From positions 1 through 36,063 of the forward strand of contig CANFXY010000011.1 of the NCBI GenBank assembly GCA_947451105.1: 36,063 nt of DNA, in the 5' to 3' direction. Source of the DNA: Bacteroidota bacterium. Lineage in GTDB: Bacteria > Bacteroidota > Bacteroidia > NS11-12g > UBA955. A program made the position numbers and the translations under genes. Below the pieces are notes generated by a model. The model saw nothing but the letters and a program-made list of their open reading frames with translations, was not told the origin of the DNA and did no database searches. Below, in pieces: positions 13,986 through 16,574 of the stretch; positions within the stretch are counted from its first letter, which is position 1; each line of letters begins with the position of its first letter.

Positions 13986-15515
13986 ATGCAAAGCCAATCA
14001 AAAACAATCAAATCTGCTTTAATTTCTGTCTACCACAAAGACAATCTAGAACCAATCGTAAGACAATTGGCCCAATTGGGTGTTCAAATTTATTCTACAG
14101 GTGGTACCTTAAGTTTTATTGAAAAACTAGGGTTGCCAGTCACTGCAGTTGAAGCCTACACAGGATTTCCTGAAATTTTAGATGGTCGCGTTAAAACTTT
14201 ACACCCAAATATTTTTGGTGGGATATTGGCACGCCGTGACAATCCAAAGGACATTCAAGAACTAGGGCAACACAACATCAATCTTATTGATTTGGTTATC
14301 GTTGATTTATATCCTTTTGAAGATACCGTAAAAAGCAGCAACGATGAGGCTGAAATTATCGAAAAGATAGATATTGGTGGTATTTCATTAATACGCGCTG
14401 CGGCAAAAAACTTCAACGACACATTAATCGTTTCAAATAGAAACCAGTACCAAGATTTATTAAATATTTTGCTTGAAAAAAATGGTTCTACGGATCTAAG
14501 CGACCGCAAACTATTTGCAGCGAAAGCTTTTATGAATTCCTCGCATTACGACACCGCGATTTTCAACTACTTTAACCAAGACTTGGCCTTGCCTGCATTT
14601 AAACACAGTGTTATGGATTCTAAAGCTTTGCGTTATGGAGAGAATCCACACCAATCAGGCACTTTCCACGGTGATTTAAATGAGGTTTTTGAAATATTAA
14701 ACGGCAGAGAATTGTCTTACAACAACCTAGTGGATGTTGAAGCTTCTTTGAATTTAATTGCTGAATTTTCAGAGCCTAGTTTTGCCATCATTAAGCACAC
14801 CAATTCGTGCGGACTTGCCAGCAGAGCCACTTTATTGGATGCCTACAAAGCAGCCTATGCTTGCGACACAACCTCTGCATTTGGCGGTGTATTGGCTTGT
14901 AACCGTGAAGTGGATTTAGAAACAGCCAATGAAATCAACAATTTGTTTTTCGAAGTTTTAAGCGCGCCTTCATACACCGAAGAGGCCTTAGACATTTTAA
15001 AACAAAAAAAGAATAGAATCATTATCCGTCTTAAAAAGACAGTCAACAATAAAACCATGTTCAAGAGTTTGTTAAACGGTGTGCTTGAGCAACAAGTTGA
15101 TTGGAGTTCTGAATCAGCCAATGATTTCAAAGTGGTAACAGAAAAGCAAATGACTGCAGAACAGTTAAGCGATTTGGAATTTGCTATTAAAGCGGTAAAA
15201 CACCTTAAATCTAATGGTATTGCCTTGGTAAAAAACAAACAATTAATTGGAATGGGCTGTGGTCAAACATCTAGAATAGATGCCCTTGAATCAGCGGTTA
15301 AAAAATCAAATGCTTTTGGCTTTGACACCAATGGTGCAGTGATGGCTTCTGAGGCATTTTTCCCTTTCCCAGATTGTGTCGATATTTCTCATCAAGCTGG
15401 CGTAGTTGCAATTGCGCAACCGGGTGGCAGCATAAAAGACCAAGAGAGCATTGACGCCGCAAATAGAAATGGTCAAGCCATGGTGTTGACGGGCATACGC
15501 CACTTTAAACACTAA
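13986..15515 (+). CDS. purH: Bifunctional AICAR formyltransferase / IMP cyclohydrolase
   Basis: ALISVYHKDNLEPIVRQLAQLGVQIYSTGGT, DGRVKTLHPNIFGGIL, LRYGENPHQSGTF, KHTNSCGLA, SEAFFPFPDCVD motifs. Confidence 0.97.
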   Translation: MQSQSKTIKSALISVYHKDNLEPIVRQLAQLGVQIYSTGGTLSFIEKLGLPVTAVEAYTGFPEILDGRVKTLHPNIFGGILARRDNPKDIQELGQHNINLIDLVIVDLYPFEDTVKSSNDEAEIIEKIDIGGISLIRAAAKNFNDTLIVSNRNQYQDLLNILLEKNGSTDLSDRKLFAAKAFMNSSHYDTAIFNYFNQDLALPAFKHSVMDSKALRYGENPHQSGTFHGDLNEVFEILNGRELSYNNLVDVEASLNLIAEFSEPSFAIIKHTNSCGLASRATLLDAYKAAYACDTTSAFGGVLACNREVDLETANEINNLFFEVLSAPSYTEEALDILKQKKNRIIIRLKKTVNNKTMFKSLLNGVLEQQVDWSSESANDFKVVTEKQMTAEQLSDLEFAIKAVKHLKSNGIALVKNKQLIGMGCGQTSRIDALESAVKKSNAFGFDTNGAVMASEAFFPFPDCVDISHQAGVVAIAQPGGSIKDQESIDAANRNGQAMVLTGIRHFKH

Positions 15516-15567
15516 ACTCTAAAAGGTTTTTTCTTTCTGGTTTGTATCAATCCTGTATAACGTAATT

Positions 15568-15710
15568 CCGCCCTTGATTGCAGCGGCAGCGCGCTATTTG
15601 TGTGGGCTAAGTTTTTGCAGGTGTATAGTGGCGCCCGGTAGCAAGCCAATAGACACCCAGCAAAAAAGGCCACAGAGACAGAGCCTACAGCGGAAAGCAA
15701 GTTAAGGCGG
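15568..15710. ncRNA. Candidate structured RNA or inverted-repeat element in the purH-mlaE intergenic region
   Basis: Nested complementarity: CCGCC 15568-15572/GGCGG 15706-15710; CTTG 15573-15576/CAAG 15698-15701; TGTGG 15601-15605/CCACA 15670-15674; TTTTTGC 15612-15618/GCAAAAA 15660-15666; GGTGT 15620-15624/ACACC 15653-15657; TGGC 15629-15632/GCCA 15645-15648. AGCGG half-sites on both arms (15582-15586, 15689-15693). Confidence 0.45.
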
Positions 15711-15806
15711 CATCAAACATATGTTCAGGTTAATGATGAGATGTATCATGTTTTTTTTATAATCCACATGAAATATTAAGCATTTTAAGTGCTAAATTCG
15801 CCTGTA

Positions 15807-16574
15807 ATGGCACATGTATCAGCAAAGGCTTTTTTAATCGAAGCAGGTGAAATAGCCCGTTTTGCCTCACGCTTTTTTAGTGCTTTGTTTAAGCCCAAAC
15901 AAGAGTGGAGAGAGTTGTTGAGACAGGCCTATTTTATTGGGTATAAATCATTGGGTTTGGTTGGACTTACAGCCTTTATTATGGGACTTGTGCTGACCAT
16001 ACAATCTCGCCCAACCTTGGTTGAATTTGGTGCTGAAGCTTGGTTGCCTAAAATGGTTTCTGTATCGCTTATTCGTGAAATTGTCCCCGTGATAACAGCC
16101 CTTATATGTGCTGGAAAAATTGGTTCCAGCATAGGTGCGGAACTTGGTTCAATGAAAGTAACCGAACAGATAGATGCCATGGAAGTCTCTGGTACCAATC
16201 CATTCAAATATTTAGTTGTCACCCGTGTGCTGGCCAGCAGTTTGATGATACCCGTTTTAGCCGTTATAGCAGCTGCGATATCTTTGTACGGAGCTTATCT
16301 AGGCACCAACATAAAAGGGGTGGTAAGTTGGCAGTTGTATTGGACTCAAGTATTTGAAGCCTTAACATACAGCGATGCATTGCCTGCTTTTATTAAGACC
16401 TACTTTTTCGGTTTTGCCATCGGTATCATTGGTTGCTACAAGGGGTTTAACTCCAGCAAAGGAACCGAGGGTGTTGGACAATCGGCAAACTCTGCTGTTG
16501 TTCTCTCTTCTCTAATGGTTTTTGTTATTGATTTAATTGCGGTTCAATTGGCCGATTTAATGGGTTTAACCTAA
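15807..16574 (+). CDS. mlaE: MlaE-family ABC transporter permease
   Basis: GLTAFIMGLVLTIQSRPTLVEFGAEAWLPKMVSVSLIREIVPVITALICAGKIGSSIGAELGSMKVTEQIDAMEVSGTNP is the MlaE permease signature. ATG 15807 preferred over GTG 15789. Confidence 0.93.
   Translation: MAHVSAKAFLIEAGEIARFASRFFSALFKPKQEWRELLRQAYFIGYKSLGLVGLTAFIMGLVLTIQSRPTLVEFGAEAWLPKMVSVSLIREIVPVITALICAGKIGSSIGAELGSMKVTEQIDAMEVSGTNPFKYLVVTRVLASSLMIPVLAVIAAAISLYGAYLGTNIKGVVSWQLYWTQVFEALTYSDALPAFIKTYFFGFAIGIIGCYKGFNSSKGTEGVGQSANSAVVLSSLMVFVIDLIAVQLADLMGLT

Follow-up and report, generated by a model that had tools for sequence, protein, structure and literature searches.

A long-armed Flavo-1-type hairpin element between purH and mlaE in a Bacteroidota bacterium

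The purH-mlaE locus and the fold of the element

The window analysed here is a 36,063-nt stretch of DNA from a Bacteroidota bacterium. The intergenic region between its purH and mlaE genes contains an element that starts 52 nt behind purH (Table 1). An earlier note, made from the sequence alone, had described a hairpin of ~143 nt at this place, and both the coordinates and the helices that it gave, including the CCGCC/GGCGG outer helix, were found to be right, as was the presence of an AGCGG half-site in each arm. The element is confirmed as a real single nested imperfect hairpin. Folding of the 143 nt as RNA yielded -53.4 kcal/mol (z -2.5) and folding as DNA yielded -32.8 (z -4.9), and none of 200 shuffled sequences folded as well in either case. 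The opposite strand also folds, with a z of -3.7. The fold check proposed in the earlier note, on positions 15560-15715, gave a z of only -2.07 with 5 of 200 shuffles as good, the flanks being included. Its G+C content of 55%, compared with 29% and 24% in the intergenic flanks, agrees with the enrichment noted before, and no T-tract follows the hairpin on the + strand, also as noted.

Table 1 Features of the purH-mlaE region, with positions in the window.
Feature	Position	Strand	Basis
purH, upstream gene (context)	13986..15515	+	PF01808, PF02142
Long Flavo-1-type hairpin element, 143 nt	15568..15710	+	DNA-fold z -4.9; R1 model match 147 bits; covariation in 75 copies
Left basal module CCGCCCTTGATTGCAGCGGCAGC, with conserved A.G-mismatch positions	15568..15590	+	Family alignment
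Left AGCGG half-site	15582..15586	+	Sequence; conserved in alignment
ATAG/ATAG internal loop with TGGC/GCCA helix between	15625..15652	+	Present in the purH-mlaE copy, not conserved in relatives
Apical loop region GGCGCCCGGTAGCAAGCC, conserved across long copies	15630..15647	+	Alignments
Right basal module GCCTACAGCGGAAAGCAAGTTAAGGCGG region, partner of the left module	15684..15710	+	Family alignment
Right AGCGG half-site	15689..15693	+	Sequence; conserved in alignment
mlaE, downstream gene (context)	15789..16574	+	PF02405

The symmetric ATAG/ATAG loop that the earlier note described does sit at 15625-15628 / 15649-15652. However, it is not conserved, the nearest relative having ATAG/ATAT, and it was dropped as a key feature of the element. 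The features conserved instead are the basal A.G-mismatch module and the apical loop, the latter not singled out in the note.

Copies of the element and their conserved structure

A BLAST search of the element's own genome (G000) detected no second copy. The same purH-mlaE site in the nearest relative (G010) carries a copy with 89% identity, and a second relative (G008) has a 76% copy at another site. The left end of the element was used as a search pattern and revealed further copies, with three pattern matches (L086, L088 and L090) not confirmed as elements and left out of the analysis. A covariance model, R1, was built from six copies. Searching the own genome with R1 resulted in 19 matches, 18 of them at E<=1e-6 (5e-7 or better) and the weakest at E 0.007; this genome is a draft of 196 contigs with a completeness of 86%, and thus the 18-19 copies are a minimum. 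The copy-number check suggested in the earlier note therefore came out positive with the covariance model, though BLAST had yielded a single copy. Because the arms diverge in sequence, BLAST is nearly blind to the family, both for the copy count and for the search of relatives. BLAST of plasmid and phage collections, a weak test for this hairpin family, gave no match.

Among relatives, R1 matched 14 places in G008, 10 in G010, 15 in G013 and a few in three more congeners, whereas ten of the seventeen genus genomes had no R1 match. Other genera of the same order also have a few copies. Of 393 genomes sampled across the phylum, 29 had matches, most of them from the genus labelled g29, probably Flavobacterium to judge from the named genomes. 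Each of seven named Flavobacterium genomes contained 4-19 matches, long and short. Many copies in G000, G008, G010 and G013 lie a few hundred bases or less from contig ends, a position that repeats would take if they interrupt the assembly.

Alignment of 75 copies placed 86.5% of cells in pairs, compared with 58.8% for shuffled and 29-40% for slid alignments; the alignment was fitted to the covariance model and its numbers lean towards that model, with the slid controls far below. The corresponding score is 0.662 against 0.183. The covariation sought in the earlier note is present, with compensatory changes on both sides in 40 of the 42 pairs. The CTGCC/GGCAG-type ends covary as well (83% of cells paired in the 75 copies), such that terminal inverted repeats, a criterion for MITEs, are present. 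The sequence of the arms diverges among long copies, whereas the basal module, the apical loop GGCGnnCGGCAGnAAGCC and the opposed purines are kept. The fixed mismatches are A10.G130 (53 of 75 copies), G13.A127 (70), A15.G125 (63) and G18.A122 (71). An A.G mismatch on one strand is a T.C mismatch on the other, and therefore selection appears to have acted on one folded strand. The length is 143-145 nt in 44 of the 75 copies, with a second group at 149-151 nt, and a model-independent pattern search gave a module spacing of 116-120 nt in 23 of 23 pairs. The long copies of Flavobacterium share a common apex, RGCGACCnGCnGGAAGCY.

No Rfam family matched at its gathering score when the Rfam check proposed in the earlier note was made, but Flavo-1 (RF01705) fits the ends of the element. 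The purH-mlaE copy scores 22.7 bits and the best long copy 39.7 bits against a cut-off of 42, and the match covers the base only, with a long insert where the arm extends. The long form and Flavo-1 have the same basal module, GCCC.GAT.G.AGCGG ... AGCGGAnAGC.GGA with A.G mismatches, and both occur in Bacteroidota in many dispersed copies; the AGCGG half-site pairs that the note had also placed in other Bacteroidota elements are the core of Flavo-1. In contrast, the Rfam model has 76 positions without a conserved apex, whereas the long form has 143 nt and a conserved apical loop. The long form is therefore a relative of Flavo-1 rather than a member by Rfam's own threshold, and the purH-mlaE element is a long-armed, apex-bearing Flavo-1 subtype outside the description of the Rfam model. 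Short forms of roughly 66-100 nt with the same base pass the Flavo-1 cut-off in the same genus and genome (for example, G000:C178 at 49.1 bits), and both length classes are present in Flavobacterium genomes. Nine closed or near-closed genomes have 6 to 111 Flavo-1 matches each above the cut-off. The genus also contains another Flavo-1-core subtype (L096-L104, L110, L113 and L123), which has an outer helix and a second hairpin in the layout GCGTnAGGGATAGnAGCGG..arm..AGCGnATAGCCCG[second hairpin]..ACGCCC. A variant of ~250 nt at L092 (G010:C53) has the same ends and an additional hairpin inside.

Orientation, base pairing and insertion sites

Copies between codirectional genes are oriented sense in 11 and antisense in 15 cases in the genus set, where a further 14 lie between convergent and 11 between divergent genes; these gene calls were heuristic, and some are wrong in the G+C-rich G013. 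The corresponding numbers in Flavobacterium are 32 sense and 38 antisense, for totals of 43 and 53. Nearly all pairs are of the Watson-Crick type. G.U pairs account for 3.2% of cells in the long copies (A.C, 2.4%) and for 1.6% (29 cells) in 110 short copies (A.C, 0.3%, 5 cells), compared with 9.5% in ten control tRNAs (A.C, 0%). Depending on the comparison, the Fisher p value for the scarcity of G.U ranges from 0.002 to 6e-9; with a small tRNA control and copies related to one another, it is a pointer to DNA and not a proof. In F. psychrophilum, Flavo-1 matches are oriented sense or antisense without a rule and many are outside transcribed regions (PMC9723704). These three observations, the gene-blind orientation, the scarcity of G.U and the F. 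psychrophilum data, favour DNA, and the evolution of the element most likely resembles that of a folding DNA repeat more than that of an RNA gene.

The strand of the element was also compared with the replication axis. Four Flavobacterium genomes showed a bias of 84:41, with origin and terminus inferred from sparse GC skew, and a raw 20-kb local skew test on the same genomes gave 47:63, which is not significant. The genus set leans weakly the opposite way (48:27), and because of this opposition the replication-strand bias was dropped as support.

The sets of copies differ between close relatives, with some sites in common. The purH-mlaE site is occupied in G010 as well, and in the remaining congeners no purH turned up next to the mlaE homologues. 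In G008 a copy lies between a substrate-binding-protein gene and rpsF, a divergent pair separated by 562 nt, compared with ~150-260 nt in five relatives with the same pair. This difference fits an insertion; gene coordinates were compared, and the difference exceeds the length of the element. Reading of the flanks by eye revealed no evident target-site duplication. The left flanks in G000, G008 and G010 contain ACGA 12 times versus 1.9 expected, orthologous sites being counted too, and the right flanks have none; the motif may reflect a preference for certain targets or belong to the element outside its modelled part. An autonomous element with the same ends was sought as distant unpaired module pairs, which were absent from 1.6 Mb of Flavobacterium windows. 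At two genus loci (L192 and L201) the left and right modules are 1.2 and 2.1 kb apart, with no partner at the normal distance. Other dispersed repeats occur around copies (L003:1640-1850, L094, L184 and L167), namely CCCTATCCCCTAAACCCTAGCCCC patches and a CCAGAGnCTCC-type repeat.

Y1 transposases were considered as candidate mobilisers. The draft assemblies of G008 (14 copies of the element) and G010 (10 copies) yielded no Y1 transposase gene, and of the 25 Y1 loci in the genus a single one, in G013, carries a copy. The three RAYT-type Y1 genes of the element's own genome are flanked by palindromes other than the element. A mobilising role of Y1 transposases is thus not supported. The palindromes of the RAYT-type genes L289, L293 and L294 (G000:C68, C102 and C34) are GTTGTTGG../CCAACAAC and TGTTGGTG..CACCAACA. 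At L278 (G013:C43:1-852) two inverted long elements flank an IS200-like Y1 gene with their left ends towards it, the second of these elements being cut by the contig end and matching at only E 0.13. The start of a RAYT-type gene at L223 (G009:C144:1198-2000) is separated by 131 nt from the left end of a long element.

Interpretation of the element

Long imperfect palindromic intergenic repeats without a known transposase include ERIC and the enterobacterial repeat unit RU-1 (127 bp). The element resembles these in size and type, by description and not by sequence, and they belong to another phylum. Integron attC sites are imperfect palindromes recognised as folded single-stranded DNA; unlike them, neither the ends of the purH-mlaE copy nor the consensus, read directly, have RYYYAAC/GTTRRRY boxes, and no cassette-array layout was seen at the element. 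The REP, BIME and REPIN sequences associated with RAYT (TnpA_REP) are likewise dispersed intergenic imperfect palindromes without genes. REP elements are 21-65 nt long, have a GT[AG]G foot and adjoin a cognate tnpA_REP gene (PMC6006769), whereas the long element has 143 nt and no consistent Y1 link. No consistent GT[AG]G foot was seen at copies in flanks read by eye, uncounted.

On balance, the purH-mlaE element is probably one copy of a palindromic DNA repeat that is dispersed and non-autonomous, a Flavo-1 subtype with long arms, a conserved apex and an almost constant length. This reading builds on what was observed: many scattered copies, covarying pairs with fixed mismatches and apex, a direction blind to genes, patchy copy sets and the site shared with G010. 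The hairpin would function as DNA, either single-stranded or in cruciform shape; a putative enzyme or binding protein encoded elsewhere would recognise its apex and mismatched base, and the repeat would spread through the folded form. At the purH-mlaE site the copy is probably an insertion of long standing that has no particular role for either gene. Against the DNA-repeat reading, no mobilising enzyme was found among the Y1 loci, no target-site duplication stood out, G.U exceeds A.C in the short copies, and functional RNAs also have such purine mismatches. Of the options raised in the earlier note, whose interpretation as a whole is partly supported, the evidence speaks most for the small non-autonomous palindromic repeat, the element being dispersed, patchy, conserved in structure and blind to genes in its orientation.

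The note's option of a cis- or trans-acting RNA accords with the filing of the family in Rfam. The hairpin would then be transcribed and work as a structured RNA, either a trans-acting sRNA or an RNA-level element, as strong conservation of structure on one strand with A.G mismatches and the excess of G.U over A.C in short copies would suit; Weinberg et al. graded Flavo-1 as probably RNA (PMC2864571). We nonetheless consider an RNA unlikely, given an orientation random to genes, the scarcity of G.U, 111 or more copies in one genome, and the F. psychrophilum transcriptome, with its matches in either orientation and often outside transcribed regions. Mismatches, apex and length fixed over great distances, together with the strand bias along the replication axis in Flavobacterium, would also suit a putative site for a chromosome-organising or DNA-processing protein, similar to a BIME or gyrase site, kept by selection and not mainly by its own spread. 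Such a site is absent from ten of the seventeen genus genomes and so is not essential, its copy number varies, and its strand bias is not seen in the genus set; we regard this explanation as improbable.

A REP-like repeat of an IS200-type or RAYT Y1 transposase, cut and moved as single-stranded DNA, is suggested by the G013 gene between two inverted elements, by the G009 gene 131 nt from a copy and by the 'atypical secondary structures' that flank Bacteroidetes RAYT subclass 2.6 (PMC6006769). The two drafts in which no Y1 gene was found, the single copy-bearing Y1 locus among 25 and the different palindromes of the genome's own RAYT-type genes make it very doubtful. Strong hairpins can protect the 3' ends of transcripts, and the position of the element close behind purH would suit an element with a local role in the purH transcript, regulatory or at its 3' end, acting in stability or partial termination. 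This explanation is barely credible, since other copies occupy every gene arrangement, which contradicts the 3'-UTR option of the earlier note as a general function, and since the + strand has no T-tract.

For the family as a whole, we tentatively propose to regard Flavo-1 as a folding DNA element. It would be an ancient class of Bacteroidota palindromic repeats selected for their structure, with a short form and a long one that bears the apex, and a putative enzyme would recognise it as mismatched single-stranded or cruciform DNA. A survey places Flavo-1 among the most abundant 'small RNAs' (PMC9029176). The family is annotated wherever the Rfam model matches, and such annotations would mislead if the DNA-repeat reading is true; the long form falls below the Rfam cut-off and is hence left unannotated. 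The fixed mismatches and apex lead to a definite prediction, that of a structure-specific DNA-binding or DNA-cutting protein.
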